From Parabacteroides distasonis ATCC 8503 (GTDB lineage: Bacteria > Bacteroidota > Bacteroidia > Bacteroidales > Tannerellaceae): a stretch of DNA of 64,000 nt. The stretch spans positions 829,501 through 893,500 of the forward strand of contig NC_009615.1 in assembly GCF_000012845.1 (NCBI RefSeq). The letters are read 5' to 3'. This document shows, one piece after another, positions 19,896-58,230 of this stretch; within the stretch, counting starts at the first letter, position 1; each line of letters starts with the position of its first letter. The position numbers and the translations under genes are program-made. The notes under the pieces were generated by a model. The model did no database searches, was not told the origin of the DNA, and saw only the letters and a program-made list of their open reading frames with translations.

Positions 19896-19939
19896 AATAT
19901 TCCAATTGAAAAGTGCGCCGCCATAGGATAAGTATAATG

Positions 19940-19966: not shown

Positions 19967-19969
19967 AAA

Positions 19970-21568: not shown

Positions 21569-21579
21569 GTTTATAATAT

Positions 21580-34271: not shown

Positions 34272-34304
34272 GAAAATAATCAGAATCTAAATAAAAACGG
34301 TAGT

Positions 34305-35813
34305 ATGGCAACAATGGCGGAGAAAATGGTGGCTTCACTGGAGGAATTAAGAAAGCTCCAGGAGAAAGACCGCTGTGTCGTTCTACAAGGGACGGCCGAG
34401 ATAGGGAGGACGCATTTAACCCGGCTGTTGGATAACGGCTGGTTGCAGGAAGTAATGAAAGGCTGGTATATTGCGGCCAGGCCGGGAACAGAGGGGGATA
34501 CGACGGTCTGGTACACCTCATTCTGGTATTTTATTGCGAAATATGCGGCCGTCCGGCTGGGGGAACGGTGGTGTTTGACGGCCGACCAGTCGCTGGATCT
34601 GTATTCGGGGAAAACGACCGTGCCCGTGCAGGTGGTTATCAAGTCGCCGAAAGGCCATAACAACACGCAAAAGCTGATGTATGATACCTCGCTTTTGGTG
34701 TTTCAAAGCGAGATTCCGGATCAGGTATATAAAGAGCCGGAATACGGCCTTAATCTCTATCCGCTTGCCGAAGCCCTGGTATATGCCACGCCGAGATATT
34801 TCCAAGTGGAGAAGATCGCAGCCCGCACCTGCCTGGCCATGATACGGGACGCTGCCGATATATTAAAGGTACTGACGAAAAACGGGGCTTCGCTTCGTGC
34901 CGGAAGAATAGCCGGGGCGTTCCGGAACATCGGGAACAGCGAAATCGCCGACAGCATCGTTTCCACGATGCGGGGGTTCGGGTATGACGTGAGAGAAGAA
35001 GATCCGTTCGAGGATCAGCCACGAACGCCCCTTGTTTATGAGGTGTCGCCTTACGTCACACGCTTGCGCCTGATGTGGGAGAACATGAGGGATAAGGTTG
35101 TAGAACTGTTTCCCGAAGCCCCTGGAAAGATTGATGACGTGGAGGGGTATTTGAGATCCGTCGATGAAAAGTATTCGGAGGACGCTTATCATTCTCTCTC
35201 GATCGAGGGATATAGGGTTTCCCCGGAACTGATCGAGAAAGTGCGTGTCGGGAACTGGAAGCCGGAGGAAGAAGATAAGGAGCATAAAAACGCACTGGTG
35301 GCACGTGGGTATTACCAGGCGTTCCAGGCTGTCAGGGGGACGATCTCCGATATACTGAAAGGAAAGAACGCAGGGGAAGCGGTAAGGGCGGATCATCCCC
35401 TCTGGTATATGCAGATGTGGATGCCGTTCGTTACGGTGGGGATCTTGCAAAGGGAGGATCTTGTGGGTTATCGTACCGGGCAGGTCTATATACGGGGATC
35501 GCAACATATCCCGTTGAACCCGAAAGCGGTCAGGGACGCTATGCCCGTCCTTTTCGATCTCTTGAAGAATGAGCCGCACCCGGCGGTAAGGGCTGTCCTG
35601 GGACACTTCTTTTTCGTGTATATTCACCCCTATATGGACGGGAACGGGAGAATGGGACGGTTCGTCTTGAACGCCATGCTTGCGTCTGGAGGCTATAACT
35701 GGACGGTTGTTCCGGTGGAGCGTAGAAAAGAATATATGAAAGCGTTGGAAAAGGCCAGCGTGGAGGGGGATATTTCCGAATTTGCCAAAGTGATAGCCTC
35801 GCTGGTCAAGTAA
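34305..35813 (+). CDS. Fic-domain protein with N-terminal regulatory domain
   Basis: 502 residues from ATG 34305. The N-terminal 200 residues resemble AbiEi/winged-helix type regulators (GTAEIGRTHLTRLLDNGWLQEVMKGWYIA). A linker follows, with a segment SIEGYRVSPELIEKV that looks like the inhibitory helix (S-x-E-G) of self-regulated Fic proteins. The Fic core has the catalytic motif HPYMDGNGRMGRF. Fic enzymes usually AMPylate proteins using ATP. The fusion to a DNA-binding-like domain plus tandem repeats upstream suggests autoregulated expression, as for toxin-antitoxin loci. It is followed by a small gene 22 bases on. Confidence 0.85.
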   Translation: MATMAEKMVASLEELRKLQEKDRCVVLQGTAEIGRTHLTRLLDNGWLQEVMKGWYIAARPGTEGDTTVWYTSFWYFIAKYAAVRLGERWCLTADQSLDLYSGKTTVPVQVVIKSPKGHNNTQKLMYDTSLLVFQSEIPDQVYKEPEYGLNLYPLAEALVYATPRYFQVEKIAARTCLAMIRDAADILKVLTKNGASLRAGRIAGAFRNIGNSEIADSIVSTMRGFGYDVREEDPFEDQPRTPLVYEVSPYVTRLRLMWENMRDKVVELFPEAPGKIDDVEGYLRSVDEKYSEDAYHSLSIEGYRVSPELIEKVRVGNWKPEEEDKEHKNALVARGYYQAFQAVRGTISDILKGKNAGEAVRADHPLWYMQMWMPFVTVGILQREDLVGYRTGQVYIRGSQHIPLNPKAVRDAMPVLFDLLKNEPHPAVRAVLGHFFFVYIHPYMDGNGRMGRFVLNAMLASGGYNWTVVPVERRKEYMKALEKASVEGDISEFAKVIASLVK

Positions 35814-37632: not shown

Positions 37633-37706
37633 AATATTCCAATTGAAAAGTGCGCCGCCATAGGATAAGTATAATGACCTTTGTATCATCCAAATACAAA
37701 GGTAAA

Positions 37707-39305
37707 ATGAAGACTATGGTAGAAAGACAATCAATAATACACATGTATAGAGTATGCGGTTATAGCAAACGGCGTATCTCTCGTGAACTTCATGTCAGCC
37801 GTCATACCGTTGACAATATTCTTTCAGAATACGAATCAGCCATCCGTACTGATAATCCGGAAGAGGCTTTGAGTGATTTGCTTACCGTCCAGCCCAAGTA
37901 TGACAGTTCCAAACGCCGCCCTCGCCGCCTTACACAAGAGATTAAGGACGAGATCGGGTTTTGCCTGAAGAAGAATGCCGTTAAGGTAGCTACGGGGCTT
38001 CGCAAGCAGCGCATGCTGAAGAAGGATATCCACCAGTTTCTGTTATCCAAAGGATATACCATCAGTTATGCCACAGTGTGCAGTTATATAAAAAATATAG
38101 AGTCATACAAAGAGAAGAAAAAGAGCGAAGCCTTTATCCGGTTGTTCTATGAGCCGGGATGCATTGTTGAGTTTGACTGGGGTGAAGTCCTTCTTTTTAT
38201 TGACGGTGTCAAGACCAAGTTTTATCTGGCCGTATTCACTTTCGGGCATAGCAATGGCAGATACGCCTACCTTTTCAGGCATCAGAATACGCTTGCCTTC
38301 ATGGAATCCCACCGCAACTTCTTCAGGGATATACATGGTGTCCCCGCCATGATGGTCTATGACAATATGCGTGTAGCCGTCAAGAGCTTTGTCGGTGGTG
38401 ACAAGAAGCCTACGGAAGCCCTGATGAAGATGTCCGGTTTCTATTGTTTTGAGTACCGTTTCTGTAATGTACGGGCCGGATGGGAGAAAGGGCATGTGGA
38501 ACGCAGCGTGGAATATGTCAGGAGGAAAGCTTTCTGCCTGACTGACCATTTCAATGACATACGTTCCGCCCAGGAGCATTTGAACCGAATGTGTACGCAG
38601 GTCAACAACGAGCAGGGCAGTCTTTCAACAGCGGAGAAATCATCGCGTCTGGAGGCTGATTTGTCATCGCTGAAGCCTTTTCCCGGCAACCTTGGCTGTT
38701 TTGAGGTCAATGAGTACATCGTGGACAAGTGGTCGACTGTCAGCATGAAAAATGTTCATTATTCCGTACCTGATTCCCTTGTAGGAGAAAAAGTACATGT
38801 CAAGGTCTACAGTGAAAAAATCGTCATCCTGTACGGGAAGGAGAAAGTGGCCTCGCACCAACGCAGTTATTGTGGTGGCGACTGGTGCATCAAGCTGGAG
38901 CACTACTTGCGTACACTTTCCCGTAAACCGGGTGCATTACCTCATTCTGTGGTCTGGCAAAGAGCACCGGAAGAACTGAAAAGACTGTATGACAGCTATT
39001 TCAAGAATGACAACAGGGCATTCGTCCTGCTGCTGGACTATGCATGGGAAAATGGTTTTTCCGGGACAGACATCATCAGGGCATGCAGGGAACTGACCGG
39101 ACGTGGTGTCAGAAAGATATCTCCGGAACAGGTAAAGGCCATGTTGCATGGCAACGCACAGGAAGAGATGGAAGAATCCATGGAGTCGCCTGTTCTTCCG
39201 GCACAACAAGAGAATATAGAAAGAGAAGCCGTGGATATGCTTGAAGGCATTACGGCACTCATGACAGGATACAATGAAGCGCATGATATAATACCAACCA
39301 TTTAA
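37707..39305 (+). CDS. istA: IS21-family transposase IstA, copy 2
   Basis: 532 residues, identical in translation to the copy 1 transposase, with the same HTH and DDE motifs and the same hairpin (37677-37703) over its ribosome-binding site. Confidence 0.93.
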
Positions 39306-39316
39306 GTTTATAATAT

Positions 39317-40072
39317 ATGAAATCAGAAAAAGAAACCATTTATGACTATGCGACAGAACTGAAGCTGCTGGCCTTCAAAGAGGAACTGGAATACACCCTT
39401 TCATTGGCAGCCGGAGAAAACTGGAGCCATTTGCATTTCTTGACCGAATTGCTTGGAAAGGAAAGTGTCAGAAGAAGGGAATGTAGAAGAAAATCAAGGA
39501 TAAAATCTGCGGGATTCCCACAAATGAAGTATCTGCATGAACTTGTCATGGAAGACATGCCCAAAGAGGCACAGATAATATTGCCTGAATTGGAAACACT
39601 GGACTTCATCAGGGAGGGAAGAAACATAGTCCTGTATGGAAATCCGGGGACGGGAAAGACTCATATTGCTACGGCTTTAGGAATAAAGGCCTGCCAGCAG
39701 GATTTTACCGTATTGTTTACTTCAGTCCCTGTCTTGCTTACCCAGATAAGGGAAGCCAAATCCGCAAAGACACTGCGGGCGTTGCAATTACGGTTTGAAA
39801 AATACGATCTGGTTATCTGTGATGAATTCGGATATGTCAGTTGTGACAAGGAAGGAGGAGAACTGCTTTTTAACCACTTGTCCTTAAGGGCCGGGAAAAA
39901 AGCTACAATCATTACTACTAATTTGGCTTTTAACAGATGGAATGAAATCATAAAGGACAAGGTGCTTGTAGCGGCAATGGTCGACAGGCTTACACATAAA
40001 GCCTATCTGGTAAATATGACCGGACTCTCTTATAGGCTCAAAGAAACACAAAAAATGAGACAAGATAAATGA
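39317..40072 (+). CDS. istB: IS21-family ATPase helper IstB, copy 2
   Basis: 251 residues, identical to copy 1 IstB; Walker A GNPGTGKTH and Walker B LVICDEFGY are intact. Confidence 0.93.
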   Translation: MKSEKETIYDYATELKLLAFKEELEYTLSLAAGENWSHLHFLTELLGKESVRRRECRRKSRIKSAGFPQMKYLHELVMEDMPKEAQIILPELETLDFIREGRNIVLYGNPGTGKTHIATALGIKACQQDFTVLFTSVPVLLTQIREAKSAKTLRALQLRFEKYDLVICDEFGYVSCDKEGGELLFNHLSLRAGKKATIITTNLAFNRWNEIIKDKVLVAAMVDRLTHKAYLVNMTGLSYRLKETQKMRQDK

Positions 40073-40870: not shown

Positions 40871-42082
40871 ATGCGAAGTACATTTTCACTTTTACCCTAC
40901 ATTAACCGCAGCAAAGTAAAGGCTGACGGTACGACTGCCATACTCTGCCGCATAACCATTGACGGCAAACAGACTGCCATCAGTACGGGGATTTATTGCC
41001 GACCGGAAGAATGGAACAGCAAGAAAAACGAGATTAAATCCGTAAGGGAAAATAACCGTTTACGAGAATATTTACGACTGACAGAGGAAGCCTACAATGA
41101 GATACTGAAATCGCAAGGCGTGGTCAGTGCCGAGATTTTGAAGAACCACATATCCTTGAACAACATCCATCCGACCACTCTTCTACAGATGGGTGAATGG
41201 GAACGTGAGCGGTTGAAGAAACATTCCGAAGAAATAGACTCGACTTCTTCCTATCGAAGTTCAATGTATTATCAGAAGTACCTGACGGATTTTCTTACGT
41301 CCATCGGTAAAAAGGACATTCCCCTTGAAGAAGTGACGGAGGATTTCGGCAAGTCCTATAAAGCCCACTTGAAGAAATGCAAGAACTTCGGGGTTTCCCA
41401 GACCAACCATTGCCTGCGTTGGTTGAACCGCCTGTTGTATCTGGCAGTCGATAAGGAGATTCTTCGTGTAAATCCCTGTGAGGACTTGGAGTATGAGACA
41501 AAGCCGGAAGCAAGGCACAGGTACATCAGCCGTGAGGAGTTCAAGAAGATACTTTCCACACCGATGTATGACAAGCGTATGGAACTGGCAAGACGGGCTT
41601 TCATATTTTCCACCCTGACGGGACTGGCTTATGTGGACATCAAACTTCTTCATCCCCACCATATCGGAACAAACGCTGATGGCAGACGGTACATCCGCAT
41701 CAACCGGAAAAAGACAAAGGTAGAGGCATTCATACCCTTACATCCCATAGCGGAGCGGATATTGTCGCTGTATAACACGACCGATGACGAGAAGCCCGTG
41801 TTTCCTCTTCCCAACCGTGATGCCTTATGGTTTGAGGTTCATGAATTGGGAATAACCATAGGGAAAGAGGAAAACTTGACCTATCACCAAAGTCGGCACA
41901 GCTTCGGCACTTTTTTGATTTCGGCGGACATACCGATTGAGAGTATCGCCAAGATGATGGGACACTCCAATATCAGGACGACACAGGGATATGCACGGAT
42001 AACCGATGATAAAATTTCCAAAGATATGGACAAACTGATGGAACGAAGAAAGGAAATATCGGCTGGCGAAAAGAAGAAATAG
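40871..42082 (+). CDS. CTn-type tyrosine recombinase (integrase)
   Basis: 403 residues, full length. N-terminal arm-binding domain (SLLPYINRSKVKADGTTAILCRI), SAM-like core-binding region (about 110-200), and a catalytic domain with STLTGLAYVDIKLL, HQSRHSFGTFL and MMGHSNIRTTQGYA (Tyr nucleophile near residue 377). These enzymes integrate and excise Bacteroides conjugative or mobilisable elements. It is second in a tandem pair and is followed by a small DNA-binding-like gene. Confidence 0.9.
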   Translation: MRSTFSLLPYINRSKVKADGTTAILCRITIDGKQTAISTGIYCRPEEWNSKKNEIKSVRENNRLREYLRLTEEAYNEILKSQGVVSAEILKNHISLNNIHPTTLLQMGEWERERLKKHSEEIDSTSSYRSSMYYQKYLTDFLTSIGKKDIPLEEVTEDFGKSYKAHLKKCKNFGVSQTNHCLRWLNRLLYLAVDKEILRVNPCEDLEYETKPEARHRYISREEFKKILSTPMYDKRMELARRAFIFSTLTGLAYVDIKLLHPHHIGTNADGRRYIRINRKKTKVEAFIPLHPIAERILSLYNTTDDEKPVFPLPNRDALWFEVHELGITIGKEENLTYHQSRHSFGTFLISADIPIESIAKMMGHSNIRTTQGYARITDDKISKDMDKLMERRKEISAGEKKK

Positions 42083-44987: not shown

Positions 44988-46196
44988 ATGGCATCGGTAA
45001 AAGTCAAGTTTCGCCCTTCTACCATAGTCGGCAAGGAGGGTACACTTTACTATCAGGTGATTCACAACCGCGTGGTCAGACAGATATATACCGACTATAA
45101 GCTTTTCGCTTCGGAATGGGATATACATTCCGAAGCGGTTGCCATGCATTGTACTCCGAACGAACAAGAGCGAAACAACTATCTGCTTTCGATAGGTTCC
45201 CGTATCAGATGGGACAAGGAGAGGTTGAATAAGATTATACACACGTTATCTCAATCCGGCACATTCGTAACGGATGATGTAGTCATGCGCTTTCATGAAA
45301 ACAGGCAAGAACTGTCATTCAACGCTTACATCAGCCAGCAGGTAGCGAGACTGAAACGTTTAGGGAAGATACGCACCTCGGAGACTTATACAGCCGCACT
45401 CAGAAGTTTCAGCAGTTTTATGAATGACACAGAGGTTTTATTTGACCAACTTAATGCGGATTTGTTTGCGGAGTACGAGGCTTATTTGAAAGGCAGGGGA
45501 AATACGCCCAACACCATATCATTCTATATGCGAATTCTGAAAGCCGTCTATAACCGTGCGGTGGAAAATGGACTGACGGAGCAACGGCATCCGTTCAAGT
45601 CTGTCTACACGGGAGTGGAGAAAACCATGAAGCGAGCCTTATCACTCAATGACATCAGACGTATCAAAGGACTGGACTTGTCATTGAAGCCCAATCTTGA
45701 CTATGCCTGCGATATGTTCCTGTTCTGTTTCTATACAAGGGGAATGTCGTTCATTGACATGGCTTATCTGAGAAAGAAAGACTTGCTGAATGGCACTCTT
45801 TCCTATCGTAGACGCAAGACAGGACAACAACTGTTCATCAAATGGGAAAAATGTATGCAGGAGATTGTTGATAAATATCCAATAAACGAAACGGAATACC
45901 TCTTGCCTATCATTACAAAACATGATGAAGATTATCGGAAACAATACACCAACGAACTTCATCGGGTAAACCATCTGTTGAAGAAAATCGGGAAACTGCT
46001 GGATTTGCCAATACCCTTGACGATGTATGTCGGTCGGCATTCATGGGCAAGTATTGCCAAGAGCCGTAATGTGCCTATCTCTGTCATCAGCGAAGGTATG
46101 GGGCATGATTCTGAGAACACTACGCAGATTTATCTTGCATCGTTGGATACCACCGTGGTAGATAAAGCCAATAAGAAAATACTGGATCTGCTGTGA
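44988..46196 (+). CDS. Tyrosine recombinase of the Bacteroides invertase type
   Basis: 402 residues, complete. N-terminal arm-like domain (VKFRPSTIVGKEGTLYYQVIHN), core-binding region (about 105-205), and catalytic domain with FCFYTRGMSFIDMAYL (Arg present), LTMYVGRHSWASIAKSRN and GMGHDSENTTQIYLASL (Tyr nucleophile). The strongly conserved end (DTTVVDKANKKILDLL) is characteristic of the chromosomal invertases that flip promoters in Bacteroides. It lies 31 bases before a segment bounded by exact inverted repeats, so I infer it flips that segment and controls the operon beyond. An integrase role for a mobile cargo is the alternative. Confidence 0.85.
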   Translation: MASVKVKFRPSTIVGKEGTLYYQVIHNRVVRQIYTDYKLFASEWDIHSEAVAMHCTPNEQERNNYLLSIGSRIRWDKERLNKIIHTLSQSGTFVTDDVVMRFHENRQELSFNAYISQQVARLKRLGKIRTSETYTAALRSFSSFMNDTEVLFDQLNADLFAEYEAYLKGRGNTPNTISFYMRILKAVYNRAVENGLTEQRHPFKSVYTGVEKTMKRALSLNDIRRIKGLDLSLKPNLDYACDMFLFCFYTRGMSFIDMAYLRKKDLLNGTLSYRRRKTGQQLFIKWEKCMQEIVDKYPINETEYLLPIITKHDEDYRKQYTNELHRVNHLLKKIGKLLDLPIPLTMYVGRHSWASIAKSRNVPISVISEGMGHDSENTTQIYLASLDTTVVDKANKKILDLL

Positions 46197-46455: not shown

Positions 46456-47643
46456 ATGAACAACAAAATATTTGCAATCACTGCTATAAGTACTCTTATA
46501 CTACTGCTTAGTTGTAGTGGAGATGAAATTATAGTCAATTCGGATAATAATCCAAATCAAATTAGTGATATAAAACCTATACTCAAGGTTTATATTGAAA
46601 ACTCTGGAAGTATGGATGGTTATATGTGCGATGGGTCTCAATTGAAAGATGCCATTTTTGATTATGTAAGTGATTTGAGCACTTGTGTAGATACGACTCA
46701 ATTATATTATATAAACAATCGTGTTATACCATATCATGCTGATTTGGAGCAATATATTAAGACAATGAATCCAATAACATTCCAAAAGGCTGGTGGCAAC
46801 CGATCCAATTCGGATTTAAGTAAAATGTTAAGTACAGTATTGGACGCGATGACTGATTCTACAGTGAGTATATTTGTGTCGGATTGCATCTTAGATCTTC
46901 CTGTCTCTGATGCACAGAGATTTCTAAGTACTTGTCAAATATCAATTAAGAATACTATAAATAAAGGCAGAAAAAATATTCCTCTTCTTGGCGTTGAAAT
47001 ATTGAAGATGAAATCTGATTTTAATGGTAAGTATTTTTATCAGAATGGAGGAAGTGAAGTTCTGACCAACGTAAAAAGACCATATTATATTTGGATTTTT
47101 GGTAATAGCAACGTACTGGCTAAATTAAATACGGAAGTACTTTTCAAGGGATTGGAAAAATATGGATATGATAATATTATCTCATATTGCCCAAAAACCT
47201 CTATACCATATGATATAACAAACAGAGCTTTAATAAGCAAGACAATTAATCCCATCAAAGGTGATTATAATGCAACTATTCGTGCCGACTTTTGTACAAC
47301 ATTACAATCAGAAGATGTTCTGCTGAATCTTGATAATTATTCTTTTAATAATCAGAACCTCATAATAGAAAATATTAAACCGATAATAGCGACTGAGAGA
47401 GAATATTCTCATTTTATTAATATTACAATACCCAAAGGAGTAAATATTGCAGAAGATTACTTGATACTGAAGGCTCCGAATATGCCAAGTTGGGTTCTTG
47501 AATCGAACGATGAATCTGGGGAAAATGTAAAGGGTAATCTCGATAAAACGACAGGTATAAAATATTTAATCGGAGGAGTCTCTGATGCTTATAAAAAAGA
47601 TAATGTATTAACTACGCTTAAATTCACTGTTAAACGAAAATAA
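46456..47643 (+). CDS. VWA-like lipoprotein, gene 1 of the phase-variable operon
   Basis: 395 residues. The lipobox is ILLLSCSG (Cys20), so it is membrane-anchored outside the cytoplasm. Residues 43-53 (LKVYIENSGSM) look like the first strand and metal-binding loop of a von Willebrand A domain, with Glu in place of the usual Asp (E-N-S-G-S); a later NRSNSDLSKML supplies the third-loop Ser region and SIFVSDCILD the second Asp. The C-terminal 130 residues are beta-rich. VWA proteins mediate regulated protein contacts, so it may sense or bind something at the envelope. The next gene starts 3 bases later. Confidence 0.7.
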   Translation: MNNKIFAITAISTLILLLSCSGDEIIVNSDNNPNQISDIKPILKVYIENSGSMDGYMCDGSQLKDAIFDYVSDLSTCVDTTQLYYINNRVIPYHADLEQYIKTMNPITFQKAGGNRSNSDLSKMLSTVLDAMTDSTVSIFVSDCILDLPVSDAQRFLSTCQISIKNTINKGRKNIPLLGVEILKMKSDFNGKYFYQNGGSEVLTNVKRPYYIWIFGNSNVLAKLNTEVLFKGLEKYGYDNIISYCPKTSIPYDITNRALISKTINPIKGDYNATIRADFCTTLQSEDVLLNLDNYSFNNQNLIIENIKPIIATEREYSHFINITIPKGVNIAEDYLILKAPNMPSWVLESNDESGENVKGNLDKTTGIKYLIGGVSDAYKKDNVLTTLKFTVKRK

Positions 47644-47646
47644 ATT

Positions 47647-48105
47647 ATGGGCGAATTATTTGGAAGTATTTATTGCTGGTTTGAAGAATTCTTTGGAATA
47701 GAACTAGCGAACTATCTTTGGGGACAGTCCTCTCCATTATCTCAGACTAACTCTTATATAGGAATTGGTTGGACAATGCTTGGCATAAGCTTGGCAATAG
47801 TTTTAATATTTTATTATGCAATCAATCACCCTCGCTTGAACCATTGGTGGGGATGGGGGATTTTCCTTATGGTAAATGCTCTAATAAACTTTATTGTGGG
47901 CTGGCAATTGGTGCTTAAAGACTATTATGGAGGAAAGATGGTAACAATTGATCCAGCAACAGATTTACAAATTCCTCTCAATATTGGTGGAGCAGAGATA
48001 ATTTGTTTTGGAGTTTCCAATATGTTTCTCTCTGTCTTAGCTTTTATAGTTTTCACATTTATATTCAAATGGTGGAGTCCCAACTGCTCTGGTGCACCAT
48101 TCTAA
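47647..48105 (+). CDS. Small polytopic membrane protein, gene 2 of the operon
   Basis: 152 residues, no recognised family. Three hydrophobic segments lie at about 38-58 (GIGWTMLGISLAIVLIFYYA), 66-88 and 115-140, with a short loop between the last two that contains DPATDLQIP. Aromatic residues cluster at the membrane edges. Packed 3 bases after gene 1 and 11 before gene 3; it probably belongs to the membrane part of the complex. Confidence 0.7.
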   Translation: MGELFGSIYCWFEEFFGIELANYLWGQSSPLSQTNSYIGIGWTMLGISLAIVLIFYYAINHPRLNHWWGWGIFLMVNALINFIVGWQLVLKDYYGGKMVTIDPATDLQIPLNIGGAEIICFGVSNMFLSVLAFIVFTFIFKWWSPNCSGAPF

Positions 48106-48116
48106 TCGTAGAAGTT

Positions 48117-49511
48117 ATGTCTAAAATATTTGTTTTCGGAATAGGGGGGACGGGGTCAAGAATCCTTCGCTCTCTTGCCATGATGTTAGCCTCTGGAGTA
48201 AAGTTCGGAGCCAATGAAATTGTACCCATAATAATTGACCCAGATGTTGCAAACGCAGATCTTACTAGAACTGTATCATTATTAAATAATTATACTGCAA
48301 TCAGAGAAAAATTGCAATTTAGTAACGACAATAGAAGTAGGTTCTTTCATACTGAAATAGAAAGAATTTTACCTAATTACACTCTCCGTATTAACGACAC
48401 CGATGATAAGTCGTTTCAACAGTTTATCGAATACGCCTCAATGTCAAAGCCTAATAAAGCAATGACCAAGATGCTGTTTTCAGACAAAAATCTTGAATCA
48501 TCAATGGAAGTGGGATTCAAAGGTAATCCTAATATTGGGAGTGTGGTGTTAAATCAAATAGCCCATTCAGCAGATTTTAATGATTTCGCTAATTCTTTTA
48601 GCGACGGAGATAGGATATTCATCATAAGTTCTATCTTTGGAGGAACTGGTGCGAGCGGATTTCCATTACTTTTAAAAACACTACGTGAGGGGAAACATTT
48701 TCCCAATTATGACCTCATCAACAAAGCCACAATAGGTGCTGTAACTATACTTCCATATTTTAAGCTAAAGCCGAATGATGAAAGTGAAATAGATTCGTCA
48801 ACCTTTATTTCTAAAACAAAGTCAGCATTAGCGTATTACGAGAATAACATAAGTAAAAATGGAAGTATTGATGCTTTATATTATCTTGCTGACGATGTGG
48901 TAAGTACATACGATAATCACGAAGGAGGTTCAGCCCAACAAAACGCAGCTCACTTAATCGAATTTTTGGGAGCTACGGCTATCGTTGATTTCTCTAAATC
49001 AAAGTTTGATACCCCGGCAAATATGGAACTTGGGATAAAAGAGACATCTGGAGCTGTATCATTTGATTCATTCTATCGTAAGATGTATGAAATGCTTTAC
49101 TACCCGTTGGTTCAATTTACGATGACAGCTAATGCGTTGACTCAGAAACTTGATGTTTATCGTTCCAGTGGTTTTAACGCAAATAAGGGTAATTTTGAGA
49201 ACTTTTATTCTGGAGTTTTTTTCAGTGACTTAGCGACATTTTTGAAAAAGTATCAGGAATGGTTAAGGGAGATGAAAGATAATAAGCGTTCTCTTGATTT
49301 GTTCAATCTTGCTTGTGGAAATAAGCCTTTTGACTTAGTAACAGGTGTAAAACCTAAGCGGATTTTTAGCAAATTTTCAGATTACAACTTGATGACAGAC
49401 CGCTTAAATAGTGCTGTAAAAAATTGCAAGAGTAAAGGTGTTGAAGATAAGTTTCTTGAAATGTTCTTTCTCGGAACGGAAAAACTTGTATCAGAAAAAT
49501 TAAGTAACTAA
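48117..49511 (+). CDS. Tubulin/FtsZ-like GTPase, gene 3 of the operon
   Basis: 464 residues from ATG 48117, chosen because the preceding 38 in-frame codons overlap gene 2. The N-terminus has a Rossmann-type glycine motif (KIFVFGIGGTGSRIL, Gly8-Arg15), and residues about 170-180 contain SSIFGGTGASG, the tubulin signature loop (GGTG(A/S)G). Strands between them (IVPIIIDPDVANADLT) fit the T3 region. This combination is that of FtsZ/tubulin-superfamily proteins outside the classical families. It would bind GTP in the cytoplasm and perhaps polymerise. The C-terminal 200 residues are helical and lack an FtsZ-like tail. Confidence 0.72.
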   Translation: MSKIFVFGIGGTGSRILRSLAMMLASGVKFGANEIVPIIIDPDVANADLTRTVSLLNNYTAIREKLQFSNDNRSRFFHTEIERILPNYTLRINDTDDKSFQQFIEYASMSKPNKAMTKMLFSDKNLESSMEVGFKGNPNIGSVVLNQIAHSADFNDFANSFSDGDRIFIISSIFGGTGASGFPLLLKTLREGKHFPNYDLINKATIGAVTILPYFKLKPNDESEIDSSTFISKTKSALAYYENNISKNGSIDALYYLADDVVSTYDNHEGGSAQQNAAHLIEFLGATAIVDFSKSKFDTPANMELGIKETSGAVSFDSFYRKMYEMLYYPLVQFTMTANALTQKLDVYRSSGFNANKGNFENFYSGVFFSDLATFLKKYQEWLREMKDNKRSLDLFNLACGNKPFDLVTGVKPKRIFSKFSDYNLMTDRLNSAVKNCKSKGVEDKFLEMFFLGTEKLVSEKLSN

Positions 49512-49518
49512 TTTCACT

Positions 49519-52500
49519 ATGTCAAAAGTATTCAGATTATATAAAGAGGGAACAACAACTTATGAAGACTGGAACAATAGTCCTGCGTTCCCATATAATT
49601 CAGCAAGTCGTGATACCATTGAGGATCCTGATGGAGCATCAGCCTGCCATGAAATAACTTCAATACCATCTCCATTCGCCCGGATTGATTTGATAAAAGC
49701 CGCCTTTAAGGAAGTTTGTAAATCAGGGAAAAATAATTTGTCCAATCTTGATGGCAATACCATTTTTCATAAGATGGTATCTGATACTCTTGATGTTGCG
49801 GAAATATTTTTCAATATCGATAAATTCAATGGTAAAGTAGAAATCATTAAATGGGATTGGTCAATTATGCTTACTGAACTTGACCAATCTGGCATTTCTG
49901 GTCATCGTTATTTTGCAGATGCACTCCGTAAGTATATGTCCTCAGACTCCAAAACGTACAACTTCGAAGCACTGAGAAACATATATTTATTAAATTATGT
50001 AGAAGGGCCAGATGAATTAAATATTATCGGTGCTACATCACCAGCTACGTTATTTTTTAGCAATGCCAATGATTTAGGATATGTTAATGATATATTCTTT
50101 GGAGAGGATAAACCATTTGATTCTAACTACCAACCATTGTACAGACGAGATTTTGAATTTGTTAAATATTTCTTTGCGTTAAGAAAGAACATACCCAATT
50201 TTGCAGGATTGTTCCCTGAATTTGACACCTATCTCACAAAAACATTTTCAGCAATCACAGACCAAAGAAAGAAGAACGAGTTACTTTCTATAACATCAAC
50301 TGTACTTGATCAGTTGTCTTCAATCTCTGTCGTTGATGTACAACAAAATGACATTGTAGAAGTTTTGGGCTATCCACTATACAAAAAGACTTCTCGCCCT
50401 GTAACGACAACTAGTGATTTTACCATAAAAACCACGAAAGAATGTGAGTTCTCTCCATTAGTTCTCCCAATAGAGGCGGGAAACCGCTATGGCGACCTTC
50501 AGTATACCACAAGCAAATGGGGTAAGACTAATGTTGCTCCGTATATTGATTCGGAATTGGATTTAATGAAAAGAACACTTCCGTTTGATGGTTCTCTTAA
50601 TCCATATCTGACAATTAGTGACTTATTGGAAGATACAATTATTCGAGTTCCTCATAGTCTGAATGTTGAAAATTATTTTGATGGAAATTTGAAACTAGAA
50701 GAAAAAGAATTGTCATATCTGCTTCCTTTAAAACCTCTGTTGTTTGAATATTTCACCCCGGAAGAGATAAGAGGAAATATGATGGATGGAAAACCAATGT
50801 TTGAGATGCAAACACTTGCAGGTAATTCAGGTGTAAAGGTTACACTCCGTGTACCCATTAAAGGAGCTGGAAATATCAGATACGTTGAATACATACGGCT
50901 TTACTATAATAATAGATGTGCAGATGTACAGAATAATGAGGGTGGAATGACTGAATTTAAGTTCACAGGATTCATTATGCCGCAAGTTAGATTCAACAAT
51001 GAACAGGACGCTATTTATACTGTATCATGTGTTCAGTCTGCAACAGGAAGAAACGAATTCCGTTTTTTTAGTGATGGTGAAAAAATCCTACCAAAAAGCT
51101 GCACTTGTCGTAATGAAGACCAACAGATTATGGTTAAGGCTGATAATTATTTGTTGGAAAAAAGGAATTTTGATTTCGTTCAAGTTCGTAACACACATGG
51201 ATATTGTGGTATTTTGCTGCCGATTTTCAAACAGCAAAGGAATGTTGAACGGTTTGAGTTCGCTATAGATTTAGGTACATCTAATACCCACATAGAGTTC
51301 CGCAAAGGAAATGAAAAACCAGAGGTTTTTACTTTCACGGCTAAGGATAGACAGTTATGTGAAATGTTCATCCCTATAAAGAATGAATATGGTTCAATTG
51401 AAGATTTGATTGAAGAAACCGAACTTATAGAGAAAGATTTTATTCCTTCAGAAATCGGCTTGTCCGATTTTCATTTTCCAACTCGGACTGTGCTTTCCTG
51501 CGCAAAGACAATAGATTGGACAAATGTAGTCGAACCATTTACGCTTGTGAATCTTCCATTTACTTATGATAAGCGCAGTGAGTTGTCTTACAACAATTTC
51601 AGATGTAACATCAAATGGGGTAATGGTGATGATCTTTGTGTGATGGAGTCGTATGTCAGATGCCTTATGCTTATCATTAGGAATAAGGTCCTTCTTAATA
51701 ATGGCGATTTGCAGCATACTAAAATCACATGGTTTTATCCTATAAGTATGGCACCTAAGCGATTGCGTAGATTGAAATCTACATGGGATGATGCTTACCA
51801 AAAATATTTTGGAAATGGTGTTACTGGATATATGACGGAATCTTCCGCACCAATTCAATATTTCTTCAAGAGATATTCAACGGCTACGGATTTAATCAAT
51901 GTTGACATTGGTGGAGGCACTACTGATATTGCGTTTGCGAAAGATAAGAATATAAGTCATGTGACATCATTTCGGTTTGCATCAAATACTCTGTTTGAAA
52001 ATTCATTTTCAGAACTTGATGAAGATAACGGTATAGTTGACTGGCATAAGAATGAAATTCTGAAACTTCTTGAAGAGAAGAATTTAATGGATCTTATTCG
52101 CGTGTTCAATAGCCCGAATAACACCAAACCTGCTAATATGGCATCATTCCTATTCGGTCTTAAAGACAACACTATTCCCCAAAGAGCCGGAGTTAATGTC
52201 AAAGCTATTGATTTTAATTATATACTCCAAGAAGATGAAGATTTTAAGATTGTATTTATTATTTTCTATACGGCAATAGTATATCACATAGCGCAAATTG
52301 TTAAGTCACTTAACCTTGAAGTTCCTCGTCATATCTCTTTTAGTGGCAATGGCAGCAAGGTAATACGTGTTATTACAACCGACTCCAAATTACTCGCGCG
52401 ATATACCAAAATGGTATTTGAAAAACTGCTCGGAAAACCGTATGGTAAGGAATTGGATTTGCTGGGTCTTGAAAAAGACTCTAACCCTAAAGAATCAACT

Positions 52501-52911
52501 TGTAAGGGTGGCATTATCGGTACGGAAGATGAAGACAACAGAGATAAGACTATTGTTTTCAAGAGTGATTGTACAGGATTAGTGACACCAAAAGATACCT
52601 ATGCCAACATTAAAGATGATTACAAGAGGCGTACAGTTACCGCAGTTGAGGATTTCTTCAAGTTCGTACTTGTTGATATGAATTCTGCATTCAATTTTGA
52701 TAAAAATTTCGGAGTTAAACCATCATCTATTCGTATCGCACAAGAAATGGCAAAGAAAGATCTTCTCACGTTCCTTGAAAAAGGAATAAGTCAGCGTTGT
52801 GAAGAAACTGAGGCGGAAGATATGATAGAGGAAACATTCTTCTATTATCCCATAAAAGGGGTGTTAAATGCAATTTCAGCAGAAATATATAACGAATTAC
52901 AACAATCATAA
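49519..52911 (+). CDS. Large actin/Hsp70-like ATPase, gene 4 of the operon
   Basis: 1130 residues. The first 570 or so are unrecognised, mostly beta and helix without membrane segments. Then comes an actin-superfamily ATPase: phosphate-1 DLGTSNTHIEF (from residue 584), phosphate-2 VDIGGGTTDIAFAKD (796), and the adenosine motif SFSGNGSKVIRVI (942). The spacing (about 210 and 145 residues) is within the Hsp70/actin range. A helical tail follows. It is cytoplasmic by composition. With a tubulin-like protein next door (7-base gap) it suggests two nucleotide-driven cytoskeletal or chaperone activities in one machine. Classical Hsp70 substrate-binding regions are not apparent. Confidence 0.75.
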   Translation: MSKVFRLYKEGTTTYEDWNNSPAFPYNSASRDTIEDPDGASACHEITSIPSPFARIDLIKAAFKEVCKSGKNNLSNLDGNTIFHKMVSDTLDVAEIFFNIDKFNGKVEIIKWDWSIMLTELDQSGISGHRYFADALRKYMSSDSKTYNFEALRNIYLLNYVEGPDELNIIGATSPATLFFSNANDLGYVNDIFFGEDKPFDSNYQPLYRRDFEFVKYFFALRKNIPNFAGLFPEFDTYLTKTFSAITDQRKKNELLSITSTVLDQLSSISVVDVQQNDIVEVLGYPLYKKTSRPVTTTSDFTIKTTKECEFSPLVLPIEAGNRYGDLQYTTSKWGKTNVAPYIDSELDLMKRTLPFDGSLNPYLTISDLLEDTIIRVPHSLNVENYFDGNLKLEEKELSYLLPLKPLLFEYFTPEEIRGNMMDGKPMFEMQTLAGNSGVKVTLRVPIKGAGNIRYVEYIRLYYNNRCADVQNNEGGMTEFKFTGFIMPQVRFNNEQDAIYTVSCVQSATGRNEFRFFSDGEKILPKSCTCRNEDQQIMVKADNYLLEKRNFDFVQVRNTHGYCGILLPIFKQQRNVERFEFAIDLGTSNTHIEFRKGNEKPEVFTFTAKDRQLCEMFIPIKNEYGSIEDLIEETELIEKDFIPSEIGLSDFHFPTRTVLSCAKTIDWTNVVEPFTLVNLPFTYDKRSELSYNNFRCNIKWGNGDDLCVMESYVRCLMLIIRNKVLLNNGDLQHTKITWFYPISMAPKRLRRLKSTWDDAYQKYFGNGVTGYMTESSAPIQYFFKRYSTATDLINVDIGGGTTDIAFAKDKNISHVTSFRFASNTLFENSFSELDEDNGIVDWHKNEILKLLEEKNLMDLIRVFNSPNNTKPANMASFLFGLKDNTIPQRAGVNVKAIDFNYILQEDEDFKIVFIIFYTAIVYHIAQIVKSLNLEVPRHISFSGNGSKVIRVITTDSKLLARYTKMVFEKLLGKPYGKELDLLGLEKDSNPKESTCKGGIIGTEDEDNRDKTIVFKSDCTGLVTPKDTYANIKDDYKRRTVTAVEDFFKFVLVDMNSAFNFDKNFGVKPSSIRIAQEMAKKDLLTFLEKGISQRCEETEAEDMIEETFFYYPIKGVLNAISAEIYNELQQS

Positions 52912-52917
52912 GAGCAC

Positions 52918-53841
52918 ATGAAACAAATTATAATCTCATTACTCACATTAGCCTTGGCGGACATCTGCTTGTGTAGTTGTGGCAATGATGTGGCTGCCAA
53001 CACTTCTCTAGAAGAGATGCATAAAAAGAGTTCCATAACGCAATCTGATGAGAAGCATAAAAAAGCGATAACTGATTCTATCAACAATCTACGAGAAAAA
53101 ATAATGGATTTAACCGAAAAATATGAAAAGGTTTATCAGGAATTAAGCGAAGTAAAAATGGACAATAAGAAAATCAATGATGAAAAAGCAACGAATAAAT
53201 GGTATATTCTTATTGGTGGAGGTATTGGATTGCTTGGTTTGATAGTATCAATTTTTGCATTTGGAAAAACAGGGAAATGTAATAATAGATTAAGTCGTCA
53301 TCGTGAAGAAATCGAATCACTGAGACAGCTATTAAATGAGCGTCGATTTGAACCAAATGTTACTGGTACTAAACGTACAAATTATTCAGCCTCGTCATCG
53401 ATACCCAATAATGAAATCTCTGATTTGTCTCGAAAAATACAACATTTAGAGAATGAACTTTTAAAAATACAAAAGACTACTCTTGTTCATGGAACACCGA
53501 CTCCATCTACAATTACCCCACCGATAAAACCAACTAGAATAGGTTACTTTGGAACAGCTATAAGTGGTGAAAACGGCACAGGGTATTTTAAAAAAGTACT
53601 TGAATCAAAAGATAGTGATGCAAGATTTTCAGCACAAATTATTGATGGTTCAGCTAATTTTGAGCCTATAGCATCTCTTTCCTCTATCAAATCCAGCGAC
53701 TATATGGACTTGGCTGTAGAATTTGAAGGGGTATCTAAAAATGAGGCAACTGATATGTCCGTTCATTACAAAGGACTGGCTCAACAAATAGGAGATAAAT
53801 GGATTATTGTAAAAAAAGCAGTTATAACTTTAAAAAAATAA
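52918..53841 (+). CDS. Membrane-anchored coiled-coil protein, gene 5 of the operon
   Basis: 307 residues. A signal sequence with a possible lipobox (LCSCGND), a coiled coil at about 40-90 (heptads in NNLREKIMDLTEKYEKVYQELSEV), one transmembrane helix at about 93-115 (WYILIGGGIGLLGLIVSIFAF), a second coiled coil (about 120-180), a Pro/Thr-rich linker and a C-terminal beta domain beginning IGYFGTAISGENGTGYF. It may span the inner membrane with the C-terminus in the cytoplasm, linking envelope and cytoplasmic parts. No family recognised. Gaps of 6 and 9 bases to its neighbours. Confidence 0.65.
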   Translation: MKQIIISLLTLALADICLCSCGNDVAANTSLEEMHKKSSITQSDEKHKKAITDSINNLREKIMDLTEKYEKVYQELSEVKMDNKKINDEKATNKWYILIGGGIGLLGLIVSIFAFGKTGKCNNRLSRHREEIESLRQLLNERRFEPNVTGTKRTNYSASSSIPNNEISDLSRKIQHLENELLKIQKTTLVHGTPTPSTITPPIKPTRIGYFGTAISGENGTGYFKKVLESKDSDARFSAQIIDGSANFEPIASLSSIKSSDYMDLAVEFEGVSKNEATDMSVHYKGLAQQIGDKWIIVKKAVITLKK

Positions 53842-53850
53842 TCAACTATT

Positions 53851-55479
53851 ATGCATTCAATAGTACCTATAATAATTATTATTATCATATTTATGCAATT
53901 GTTTTTCTTTGTGAAGAACTTTTTGCGTATGCGCCAATTCAGTAACATCTTTACTGGTACAACTTCATGGCGAATAAGACGTAATGCAGAAACCTCTCTT
54001 GTGGATGGCATATATGGGGATGGTAACAAAATATTTATCGGCATTATTACATCCATCAATAAATATCTTGGAAATAACTCCGGTTCAGTTATTGATTTTG
54101 GTCTTCTGAAAGATGCGGTTGACCGTCACTGTGATTCTGTAGAAAATGACATAGCTACACAGACACCTATTCCACTTTATTGGGGATTGGCTGGTACAAT
54201 GGCTGGTGTTATTATGGGATTGTGGGATTTGTTACAGTCTAATGCAATAATGACTCTTATGAGCAGCGGTGGCGGAGTTATCGATAATGCTTCACAGAGT
54301 GCCGCTTCTGGAATTAATTCTCTTTTAAGTGGTGTCGCATGGGCAATGCTGGCTTCTATTTGTGGTATTCTGCTTACGACAGTCAATTCTCTTCTCTTCA
54401 AAAGATGCAAACTTAATGAGGAAGACGGGAAAAATTCTTTTTTTGCTTGGATGCAATCAGAACTTCTTCCTGAATTACCATCTGATACATCCGAGGCACT
54501 TAACAATCTCGTAAGAAATCTCAATAAATTCAACAATACATTCGCACAAAACACATCAAATCTTGGGAATACGCTAAATGCCGTTAATCAGTCCTATGCA
54601 ATACAAGCGGATATAATAAAAGCGGTTCATGACATGGATGTTATGAAAATGGCAAAAGCTAATGTGCGTGTTCTTGAAGAATTACAACAATGCACAGACA
54701 AATTGGAAGTATTTAATCAATATCTCAATGATATTGAAGGATACACCGAAGCTATACATAGATTTGAATCATTGTATAATGAACAAGCAAATCGAATCCA
54801 CATACTTGAAGAAATAAGAGATTTCTTTGGACGTCATAAAGGAGAAATAGCTAAAACAACAGCTGATGCAGACAGGACACTTCAAGAGTCTCTCCAAAAT
54901 ATAAAGGAATCTACATCATCAAATGTCGAAGAACTGCACAAAAGGTTTATTGAACAAAGTGAGTCATTCAAAGAAATTCTTAAATCTGAACGAGAGTCAT
55001 TTGAACAATTTACAAATGATTTAAAGGCTCAATTTAGTGCCCAAATGACACAAATGCCACAATTGTCTGAACAATTGGAAGAAATTTCAGCAATTCCTGT
55101 CAGACTTGACAAGCTGATTGAAAAAATAGAAATGTCAAACATCCGTTTAGCGAATGACATATCCCAGTCTATCAAACAAACCTTGATGACCACAAAGGTA
55201 AATAAAATACTTGATACAAATGATAGTGTTCGTGTTGGCGATTCCATACCAGCGTGGATGAAAGTCTCAGGATGGGCTGCATTAGTAATCATTGCCATTA
55301 CCTGCATTTTAAATATCGTGTTTATGTTTTTCCCCGTTAAAAAGGATAAGAGCCAGCCACAACAAATCCATATTCAGCCAACAGAGTTGCCGATGCAAAT
55401 AGTTAATAAACAAGCAGAAAATACTACTGATGCGGTCTTAAATACAACAGATTCTATTAAAGATAATAATAAAAAGTAA
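53851..55479 (+). CDS. MotA/TolQ/ExbB-like (ZorA-like) channel protein with long coiled coil, gene 6
   Basis: 542 residues. TM1 at about 4-24; TM2 in PLYWGLAGTMAGVIMGLWDLL (108-128); TM3 in LLSGVAWAMLASICGILLTTV (about 158-178). This trio with the short cytoplasmic domain between TM1 and TM2 is the MotA/TolQ/ExbB fold. A long helical coiled-coil region (about 205-440) follows, like the tail of ZorA in the Zorya anti-phage system, and unusually a further TM at about 475-495 and a Gln/Pro-rich end. It should form the pentameric stator around the MotB-like dimer encoded next (2-base gap), driven by proton or sodium flow. Confidence 0.82.
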   Translation: MHSIVPIIIIIIIFMQLFFFVKNFLRMRQFSNIFTGTTSWRIRRNAETSLVDGIYGDGNKIFIGIITSINKYLGNNSGSVIDFGLLKDAVDRHCDSVENDIATQTPIPLYWGLAGTMAGVIMGLWDLLQSNAIMTLMSSGGGVIDNASQSAASGINSLLSGVAWAMLASICGILLTTVNSLLFKRCKLNEEDGKNSFFAWMQSELLPELPSDTSEALNNLVRNLNKFNNTFAQNTSNLGNTLNAVNQSYAIQADIIKAVHDMDVMKMAKANVRVLEELQQCTDKLEVFNQYLNDIEGYTEAIHRFESLYNEQANRIHILEEIRDFFGRHKGEIAKTTADADRTLQESLQNIKESTSSNVEELHKRFIEQSESFKEILKSERESFEQFTNDLKAQFSAQMTQMPQLSEQLEEISAIPVRLDKLIEKIEMSNIRLANDISQSIKQTLMTTKVNKILDTNDSVRVGDSIPAWMKVSGWAALVIIAITCILNIVFMFFPVKKDKSQPQQIHIQPTELPMQIVNKQAENTTDAVLNTTDSIKDNNKK

Positions 55480-55481
55480 TT

Positions 55482-56114
55482 ATGGCTCAGAAAAAGGAAT
55501 CGTTTTTTTGGACAAGTTACTCAGACTTGATGACAAGTTTGTTTTTTGTCATGTTAGTATTATTCATTCTTGTAATTGTTCTTCTACATAAGCGTATGGA
55601 GGCAACAGAAGCTCAGTTACAAGAGATTAAAAAGGTTGAGCAATCAACAAAAGATTTAAGTCGAGATTATTTTCAATATCGTTCAGATTACAAAAAATAT
55701 GTTCTAACAATTCAAGTTCGCTATCCTGCCGGAAAGTCTGACTTGAATGATATTGTATCTACGGATAAAGAAGCCCAATTACGTCAATTGGCTGCGGCAG
55801 GACGCGAAATACGAGATTTCTTAAAAAACCATAGTGAGAATCAATATATTCTTATAATAGAGGGGCAAGCGTCAAAAGACAACTTCCTTTATAATTATGA
55901 ATTAAGTTACCAACGGGCATTAGCACTTATGCGTTTTTGGATTGAAGATTCACGTATTACATTTGGGAGTAATTGCGAAATTCTAATATCTGGCAGTGGA
56001 GATGGCAAACTTGATACTCATTCTATGCGAGAAACAAATGACGAAAGAGAGAATCAGCGTTTCCTTATTCATATATTGCCAAAAAACATTTTTGAAAACA
56101 ATGAAAATAAATAA
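55482..56114 (+). CDS. MotB/OmpA-like (ZorB-like) motor partner, gene 7
   Basis: 210 residues. The N-terminal WTSYSDLMTSLFFVMLVLF has the membrane-embedded Asp15 that corresponds to the proton-accepting Asp of MotB/ZorB; TM 15-36; a short coiled coil; then an OmpA-like peptidoglycan-binding fold (YILIIEGQASKD, YELSYQRALALMRFW, ENQRFLIHI). It would bind the cell wall and pair with gene 6 to make an ion-driven rotary or pulling unit. Its end overlaps the start of gene 8 by 14 bases. Confidence 0.82.
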   Translation: MAQKKESFFWTSYSDLMTSLFFVMLVLFILVIVLLHKRMEATEAQLQEIKKVEQSTKDLSRDYFQYRSDYKKYVLTIQVRYPAGKSDLNDIVSTDKEAQLRQLAAAGREIRDFLKNHSENQYILIIEGQASKDNFLYNYELSYQRALALMRFWIEDSRITFGSNCEILISGSGDGKLDTHSMRETNDERENQRFLIHILPKNIFENNENK

Positions 56115-56856
56115 TTTCATAATATCAACAGTTTCTATTATATGTCTGTATTCATGCGCTCATAAATCAGGACATGGTGAAAGGAATGATAAGATTGTAA
56201 CTTCACAACAGTCACAGTCAGTACTAGTGTCTCCTAATAAAAAAGCAAGGAACGTCACAATATCAGTTGTAAATAATCGTGGTGATAAAAATAAGCTTGA
56301 TGGTTCTCAAATTTTTTCGAAATATAATACGTCAGTTTTTATGGTGTTTACTTCGGATGGCTACAATATGTACCAAGGTTCTGGATTCTTTATCAACAAA
56401 GATGGTTTGGCTGTCAGCAATTATCATGTGTTCAAAGGAACTGGCATTGGTGAGGAAGGGATTAAATTAGCTGGAAGCGATAAGGTGTACAAAGTAGAGG
56501 AAGTGATCATGAGCAGTGAAAATGAAGATTTTATTCTATTCCGTGTAGATGTTTCCAATACAGATTTTATTCCCGTTGCCAAATACAAACCGAATGTGGG
56601 TGAAAAAGTCTATGCTATTGGTAGCCCCCGTGGACTTGAAAATACCTTTTCTTCAGGAGAGGTATCGCAATGGCGTGACAAAAATTTAATGCAAATTTCT
56701 GCTTTAATTGATCACGGTAGCAGTGGTGGCGCATTGATAAATGAATACGGAGAAGTAGTCGGTATCACATCCGGTTCGTTTGCAGACGGCTCACAAGCCA
56801 ATCTAAATTATGCATGGAGCATTGATGTGATAAAACCATATGTAAAAAACAAATAA
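56101..56856 (+). CDS. Trypsin-like (S1C/DegP-type) serine protease lipoprotein, gene 8
   Basis: 251 residues from ATG 56101, which gives a proper lipoprotein signal (STVSIICLYSCAHKSG, Cys19); longer readings overlap gene 7. Catalytic triad: His109 (VSNYHVF), Asp143 (NEDFILFRV), Ser208 (DHGSSGGAL). There is no PDZ domain. A linker of about 50 residues keeps the enzyme away from the membrane. It acts on the outer side of a membrane, so it may be the effector or a processing enzyme of the complex. It overlaps gene 7 by 14 bases, showing it belongs to the operon. Confidence 0.82.
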   Translation: MKINNFIISTVSIICLYSCAHKSGHGERNDKIVTSQQSQSVLVSPNKKARNVTISVVNNRGDKNKLDGSQIFSKYNTSVFMVFTSDGYNMYQGSGFFINKDGLAVSNYHVFKGTGIGEEGIKLAGSDKVYKVEEVIMSSENEDFILFRVDVSNTDFIPVAKYKPNVGEKVYAIGSPRGLENTFSSGEVSQWRDKNLMQISALIDHGSSGGALINEYGEVVGITSGSFADGSQANLNYAWSIDVIKPYVKNK

Positions 56857-57123: not shown

Positions 57124-58230
57124 TCAAGCCGAAATATATTGTAATACATTGTATCTTAGCAAGAAAGAAAAATCGCTATGCCTTCCGACATGCGGGCTGA
57201 CGCGGACACTGCAGCCGGCCTTCTCGCCGATACGTTTCAGACTGTCCTCCATACTCCCTATTTCCCCCACGGGGAACACCCTGTCCGGAGAAACCTTGAA
57301 TTCGTTCACCCCCCTGTATTTCTCGATCAGCTCGACGGCTATCGGGAGCAGCTTGACAACATAGGGTGCCTTGGTCTTCACACGGTTTCCAACCAGCCAG
57401 GTGTTCCCGTCCGAATCCGTGTGGACATTCCGGTAAGAAAGTTCCTTCAGGTCGGCATGGGCCAGGCCGCTGAAGCACATGAAAACAAACATGTCCCGGA
57501 TGGCCTGCTGCCGCCTGTAGCTCAGCTTGACGCTGATAACGCGTTGCAGGTCCTCCTCCGAGAGGAAAGGACGTTTCTTGTATTCCGGCTTGCACACGAA
57601 CTTCTTGAACGGGTGCTTGTGGATCCATCCCTCGTCCATTGCCAGATACATCAGCCATTTCAGTGTGTTGACGCGCTCGAAGGCCGTTGACTTGGCCAGC
57701 CCGCGCACGGAAAGCATCCAGTTGTAATAGTTCTTGATGAAATCCATGTCCAGCGACATCAGGGGGATATCCTCCGTACCCAACTTGTCCTTCAGGTAAC
57801 AGGACAGACACTTGTACTCGTCCACCAACCCCCGGTAGGTGCTTTGGGCTTTCGTCTTGCCGATCTGCCGTTTGTAATCCCGGATCTGGATATTGAAGAT
57901 CTCCATCAACGAATGGATCTCCTCGCCAAAGCCGTTATAGCGGTCATAGACCTTCTTGGCTGTCAGGAACGAATCGTGGTCCGAGAGATATTGATAGTGC
58001 TTGCCGATCTGTGCCTTGATGTTCTCCAGCTCCCGGTTCAGCCGTCTTGCCTCCTCGGATTTGCCTTTGGCACAGTTGCCTTTGGCATCCCAAAGGGCAA
58101 GGGGAACATCACGCTTGCAGCTGAAACTCGCCGTCGTTCCGTTGACGGTAATACGCCCCATGACAGGGACACGGCCATTTTTTATGGCCTGGTTCTTGGT
58201 GTAGAACAGAACTCGAAAGGTACTCCTCAT
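57124..58230 (-). pseudogene. CTn-type tyrosine recombinase, C-terminus lost
   Basis: 368 codons. The N-terminal arm domain (FRVLFYTKNQAIKNGRVPVMG), core-binding part and the first catalytic boxes (MCFSGLAHADLKEL, VSPHVGRHS) are normal. After GRHS the frame enters unrelated AT-rich codons (DFSFLLRYNVLQYISA) and stops, so the LGH box and the Tyr nucleophile are missing. The loss of similarity at about 57172 probably marks a recombination junction. It is GC-richer than the adjacent operon. Should be catalytically dead. Confidence 0.8.

Follow-up and report, generated by a model that had tools for sequence, protein, structure and literature searches.

An operon of Bacteroidota joining tubulin-like, actin/Hsp70-like and stator-type proteins with interchangeable exported enzymes

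Neighbourhoods that join FtsZ-like, vWA and OmpA-type proteins were predicted in 2010 by Makarova and Koonin, and GTPases and protein kinases are frequent partners of the FtsZ-like-1 proteins in the available part of that text (PMC2875224). The GTPase-centric conflict systems are built on a DO-GTPase and GAP1, with a tubulin form found mainly in Firmicutes and Actinobacteria, according to the accessible sections of that study (Kaur et al., 2020; PMC7159879). For the Zorya systems, the portions of the source at hand state that defence requires the peptidoglycan-binding domain, the ion-conducting Asp and the ZorA tail (PMC11890865). Periplasmic vWA domains have been proposed to act as force transducers with a pentamer:dimer Tol/Ton-type motor (PMC12204202, partial text). 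Here, we describe an operon of Parabacteroides distasonis ATCC 8503 that resembles each of these systems in part. It lies in a stretch of 64,000 nucleotides (NC_009615.1, positions 829,501 to 893,500), which is referred to as the window. In the literature covered, which excludes most subscription papers, no paper was recognised as describing this combination of genes or its effector logic.

Composition of the operon

Eight plus-strand genes at 46456-56856 of the window are spaced 2-11 bases apart or overlap (Table 1). This bears out the tight packing on one strand that an earlier, sequence-only reading of this DNA had noted, and the eight-gene operon is a confirmed observation. The gaps from g1 to g7 are 3, 11, 7, 6, 9 and 2 bases and the overlap of g7 and g8 is 14, computed with g3 starting from ATG 48117 and g8 from ATG 56101; a longer g3 frame from TTG 48003 would overlap g2. 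Counted in windows, the G+C content is 34-36% within the operon and 45-49% on both sides of it.

Table 1. Genes of the operon and integrase genes nearby, in coordinates of the window
Feature	Position	Strand	Basis
g1: vWA-fold lipoprotein, 395 aa	46456..47643	+	fold
g2: small membrane protein, 152 aa, without family	47647..48105	+	Pfam, hydrophobic stretches
g3: tubulin/FtsZ-like protein, 464 aa	48117..49511	+	Pfam, conserved loops
g4: 1130 aa, actin/Hsp70-type ATPase fold at residues 576-1007	49519..52911	+	fold
g5: coiled-coil protein, one membrane span, 307 aa	52918..53841	+	hydrophobic stretches
g6: ZorA/TolQ-like stator subunit, long coiled-coil tail, 542 aa	53851..55479	+	profile matches
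g7: ZorB/MotB-like subunit, OmpA-type domain, 210 aa	55482..56114	+	PADLOC, ZorB chains
g8: trypsin-like lipoprotein, 251 aa	56101..56856	+	Trypsin_2
Tyrosine integrase adjoining the operon upstream	44988..46196	+	Pfam
Second, convergent tyrosine integrase, downstream of the operon	57124..58230	-	Pfam
Another integrase	40871-42082		

The sequence-only reading had taken g1 for a VWA-like lipoprotein, g3 for a tubulin-like protein and g4 for a member of the actin superfamily, and all three assignments hold. A vWA-type fold is found in g1. The g3 protein matches Pfam Tubulin PF00091 (E 1.8e-6) and Tubulin_2 PF13809 (E 8.1e-6), both slightly below the Pfam cut-off for the window protein (25.8 bits against 27 for Tubulin_2); 33 and 28 of its 38 homologues, respectively, match these families at E<=1e-3, and the glycine-rich nucleotide loops are kept across the 38. 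The fold test could have refuted the placement of g4 but upheld it: the region given in Table 1 has the ATPase fold of the actin/Hsp70 type, and its motifs are conserved. Pfam gives no family for g2 at E<=1, and the protein has three hydrophobic stretches. The g5 protein begins with a signal or lipoprotein start and has hydrophobic stretches at 1-23 and 94-117. Among 28 dereplicated operons, g5 is the fastest-evolving part, followed by g1, with mean pairwise identities of 20% and 34% against 46-54% for g3, g4 and g7; the exposed parts diverge fastest, as sensors of an enemy might. Most loci have one g5-like gene, and six operons (L058, L059, L064, L071, L073 and L076) have two.

The membrane part of g6 matches ZorA (8qyy) weakly (E 2.3e-4), and an ExbB-type profile matches at the same place, also weakly (E 6.6e-4). 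For g7, matches were obtained to PADLOC ZorB1 (E 5.5e-14; 32.2 bits, with a curated cut-off of 400), to solved ZorB chains (E 4.9e-12 and 4.1e-8) and to OmpA (E 3.2e-4, below cut-off), and its membrane Asp15, a feature of MotB-type B subunits, is invariant in 23 of 23 sequences. The similarities to ZorA, ExbB-type proteins and ZorB are in line with the earlier reading of g6 and g7 as a putative MotA/TolQ/ZorA plus MotB/ZorB-type pair.

Exported enzymes of the last slot

Gene 8 had been read as a trypsin-like exported lipoprotein, in agreement with its match to Pfam Trypsin_2 (E 3.9e-23) and its lipoprotein signal, in which the leader is SCAHKSGH. The triad His109, Asp143 and Ser208 is intact in all 26 trypsin-like frames, and the protein is similar to DegP/DegS-type proteases. 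The components and the co-occurrence put forward by the sequence-only reading stand; beyond that reading, the protease proves to be one of several interchangeable enzymes. One or more recognised exported enzymes are present in 31 of 40 dereplicated stator-bearing clusters: trypsin-like in 23, endonuclease in 10, retropepsin-like in 4, and staphylococcal-nuclease, endonuclease/exonuclease/phosphatase, GH25 lysozyme and transglutaminase-like types once each. A nuclease occurs in 12 of the 40, together with a protease in 9, and 9 clusters have no recognised enzyme, in some cases because the contig ends. The count took same-strand genes within the fetched stretch; it includes the endonuclease of L075 although this is upstream and split, and a retropepsin-like frame of 683 aa far upstream in L049 was excluded beforehand. 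In L186, a lipoprotein that looks SNase-like by eye adjoins g7 on the opposite strand.

Family assignments at the 3' slot reach E-values of 4.3e-54 (DNA/RNA non-specific endonuclease), 2e-14 (retropepsin-like), 4.1e-29 (staphylococcal-nuclease type), 1.2e-8 (endonuclease/exonuclease/phosphatase), 5.7e-28 (GH25 lysozyme) and 4.2e-6 (transglutaminase-like), and three unrelated nuclease folds are found among the exported enzymes near the end of the operon. A loose lipobox rule is passed by 44 of 48 effector frames, the RGH motif occurs in 9 of the 13 endonuclease-like frames, and all 6 retropepsin-like ones have D[TS]GA. The loci L037 and L038 are 86-90% identical in g3, g4 and g7, yet they carry different enzymes. 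The last slot of the operon is a cassette of interchangeable exported enzymes, which is new here.

A leader of the form C[AS]H-x-SG is common to three unrelated effector folds. Of the 1105 frames of these loci, 24 have the pattern C[ASNR][HR][KRST]SG near the start. Every one of them is an effector (20 trypsin-like, 2 retropepsin-like and 2 endonucleases), a count that is descriptive because the pattern was drawn up after the effectors had been seen; the pattern is absent from 6 of the 26 trypsin-like frames, 11 of the 13 endonuclease-like ones and 4 of the 6 retropepsin-like ones. The coding pattern for CAHKSG occurs once in the organism's own genome, within gene 8. Samples of 123 family and 295 order genomes, few of them in both, gave 21 raw matches against 8 for the reversed control (family) and 28 against 10 (order). 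Among 48 matched loci in the family and order samples, only two, both gene 8, have the pattern as the lipoprotein leader of a long frame. We infer a docking role for the shared leader, which would make it a handle on the docking partner of the effectors.

Distribution, variants and chromosomal setting

A gene-4 profile scan of named genome contigs yielded 49 loci and the order genomes 8 larger stretches, giving 58 loci with the window, one of them (L020) being the allele of the window itself; the loci form 50 clusters at 95% gene 4 identity. The order g1-g2-g3-g4 on the same strand is kept in 49 of the 58 loci and g1 to g7 in 31, unlabelled frames in between not being held against a locus, and the exceptions include contig ends, uncalled genes and true variants. 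The genes are therefore together beyond chance by this neighbourhood survey, as had been supposed. Gene 4 is found at 100% identity in a genome record titled Bacteroides muris. Four loci (L026, L043, L059 and L068) come from MAGs with titles of other phyla and have a gene 4 resembling those of Bacteroidales; the titles are taken for probable binning errors.

Presence of the operon is patchy, with gene 4 in 9 of 123 family, 3 of 38 genus and 11 of 295 order genomes after removal of short matches, and in 9 of 395 genomes of a phylum sample at E<=1e-20. In the family sample, 103 of the 123 genomes had raw matches, of which 94 cover only profile positions ~794-877, almost all in frames of ~340 aa; these were read as MreB and rejected. 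The order sample had 13 raw matches, two of which, with 39-65 matched residues, were dropped. Gene 4 is without a match in 50,697 phage records, and viral contigs gave no confirmed locus in a scan that reaches only close relatives. A plasmid collection searched with gene 3 gave six records, one from Prevotella (36.5% identity) and five cyanobacterial (24-29%).

Two types of variant were found. Seven loci (L032-L035, L050, L039 and L057) have a short g6 and lack g7 and a recognised effector. L032-L035, from four Prevotellaceae genomes, have common upstream genes that are FtsK-like, M64-peptidase-like and TPR-like by eye, so that this form looks like a resident chromosomal locus. The second type, without recognised g6 or g7, comprises L070, L071, L073, L076, L185, L188 and L189; L071 and L185 have a retropepsin-like lipoprotein although no stator is recognised. 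From the stator-less types it follows that g1 to g5 are the heart of the system, with the stator and enzymes as frequent additions, and in relatives without stator or effector this core may have another role. There are also decayed copies, as shown by a gene-4 relative in L080 (genome G412) that three stop codons interrupt. In Bacteroides acidifaciens (L031:17437-18690), the gene directly after g8 resembles an additional, ordinary FtsZ by eye.

The tyrosine integrase gene that adjoins the operon upstream is accompanied by one MobC-like and one DUF3408 gene, and no convincing direct repeats were found at the segment ends. At E<=1e-80, 45 of the 123 family genomes have relatives of this integrase. 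Of the 12 top matches in genomes other than the own one, ten were followed (G363:C232 and G342:C33 were omitted); they are 53-90% identical to the query (44988-46193), and L182 ends at a contig edge, which leaves nine readable loci. In five of these nine, restriction-modification genes come right after the integrase, recognised by PADLOC and Pfam in L175, L178 and L179 and by 76-85% identity to those in L177 and L180. The integrase of L176 (89% identical) is followed by other genes with no restriction-modification among them. L176:3454-12656 (genome G328) has an operon-like set that encodes small proteins, a kinase-AAA fusion, a g5-like membrane coiled-coil protein and an Hsp70 (1.2e-70), and this set may be another, related system that uses this slot. 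In L181:7235-11989 (genome G362), a 59% identical integrase is followed by a run of genes that look FHA-, PP2C- and kinase-like by eye, and an rRNA-dimethylase family gene without restriction-modification follows in L183. In L184, where the integrase is truncated, no defence-type gene was found after it. The flanking integrases, together with the same integrase family carrying other cargo in sister genomes, fit the suggestion that the operon is borne on a mobile element; the upstream family is present in only 7 of the 58 operon loci. The restriction-modification cargo is the strongest circumstantial evidence that ties the operon to defence, from an integrase comparison without a matched control.

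Among flanking genes as a whole, defence models are not clearly in excess. At E<=1e-10, 52 PADLOC model families were matched in 128 flanking proteins and 40 in 127 proteins from random stretches of the own genomes, and no enrichment is claimed because the counts are of models and not of proteins; from 180 candidates, 135 were listed (32 loci), and seven effectors or effector neighbours were removed. Elsewhere in the window, two pairs of frames at 19913-22335 and 37650-40072 agree in length (551 and 251 aa) and in spacing, as if from two copies of one insertion element, and a Fic-domain protein (2.1e-13) is encoded at 34218-35813 with a resolvase gene just upstream.

A proposed machine and its relation to known systems

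The operon is a conserved, modular envelope system of Bacteroidota with a new effector logic, and the envelope-spanning machine that had been proposed for it fits. With about even confidence, we infer that it is an envelope-sensing, ion-driven, Zorya-like machine with periplasmic effectors, probably directed against phages. In this scheme, g7 would sense a change in peptidoglycan or envelope tension together with g5 and g1, the trigger being phage or other incoming DNA that disturbs the cell wall. Ion flow would then move the g6 tail, which may act on a cytoplasmic assembly of g3 and g4 whose GTP/ATP-driven state sets the threshold. This state could be relayed back via g2 and g5 to g1, which would hold or free the effectors through their shared leader, and lipid-anchored periplasmic proteases and nucleases would likely be switched on. 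A periplasm-facing nuclease would leave the host chromosome untouched and encounter no DNA other than that passing through the envelope; a protease could cleave the ejection proteins by which incoming DNA is carried. For this reading speak the conserved order, the stator similarity, the swapped exported enzymes with their common leader, the fast evolution of g5 and g1, the patchiness and the restriction-modification cargo. Counted against it are the stator-less and effector-less forms, the enzyme-less clusters, the flanks without an excess of defence models and the low number of loci with the integrase.

A broader claim is made more tentatively, namely that the operon represents a new class of immune machine, in which tubulin-like and actin/Hsp70-like NTPases are wired via an ion-driven stator to leader-docked periplasmic enzymes, which would destroy phage DNA and ejection proteins on their way to the cytoplasm. 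If true, this would mean that bacteria have a defence operating in the periplasm and that NTPases of the tubulin and actin types serve as its switches. FtsZ-like-1/vWA operons have been without a known function since 2010, and the enzyme cassette supplies a logic that can be tested.

The main rival to an envelope-sensing defence, which we consider rather unlikely, is a machine for membrane remodelling or envelope maintenance, in which the cytoplasmic tubulin- and actin-like proteins act via the vWA protein, and via the stator where present, and the role of the exported enzymes is to mature or clear proteins of the envelope and to clear stray DNA. Remodelling is the proposal published for FtsZ-like-1/vWA/OmpA neighbourhoods, as given in the part of the paper available (PMC2875224), and it would suit the stator-less, effector-less form found among the same neighbours in the four Prevotellaceae genomes, as maintenance would suit the resemblance of g8 to DegP/DegS-type proteases; however, patchiness even within the genus and a slot in which unrelated nucleases and proteases replace one another would be unusual for maintenance. 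A device for delivery or antagonism that offers lipoprotein enzymes to other cells is improbable: variable exported enzymes driven by a predicted energised envelope complex would suit it, but no obvious outer-membrane channel or immunity gene was seen in the gene lists and family matches, from which this was judged. That the operon is simply a Zorya system is very improbable, since the PADLOC models of ZorC, ZorD and ZorE have no match at E<=1 in any of the eight proteins and g7, although nearest to ZorB models and accompanied by a g6 with a long, ZorA-like tail, scores far below the ZorB1 cut-off.

Among described systems, the link drawn earlier to the FtsZ-like/vWA/OmpA neighbourhoods is apt as far as the available text goes (PMC2875224): the Tubulin_2-type FtsZ-like, vWA and OmpA-type proteins of the FtsZ-like-1 system are all present here, likewise in a predicted operon and an envelope setting. 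At 464 aa, g3 differs from the FtsZ-like-1 type protein of 1051 aa in that source; the FtsZ-like protein of that system is marked by a long coiled coil and a helical C-terminal domain. The accessible text of the source does not mention actin-like or MotA-type proteins, defence or exchangeable exported enzymes. The operon shares with the GTPase-centric conflict systems a tubulin/HSP70-type protein and a vWA protein in a predicted conflict operon, but it has a putative stator pair, whereas no MotA- or TolQ-type protein is named for them in the sections at hand (Kaur et al., 2020; PMC7159879), and no TRAFAC GTPase, DO-GTPase or GAP1 family of Pfam matches any of the eight proteins at E<=1. The vWA force transducers, in the partial text, are TonB-like and membrane-tethered (PMC12204202), whereas g1 is a lipoprotein encoded together with a MotB-type subunit. 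With Zorya types I-III the operon appears, from sequence similarity, to have in common a ZorA/ZorB-type stator, a tail, a peptidoglycan-binding domain and exchangeable effectors. It is thus Zorya-like in part, but not Zorya by membership: the tubulin-like, actin-like and vWA proteins are extra, and its enzymes are exported, whereas ZorC, ZorD and ZorE are cytoplasmic according to the portions of the source available (PMC11890865).
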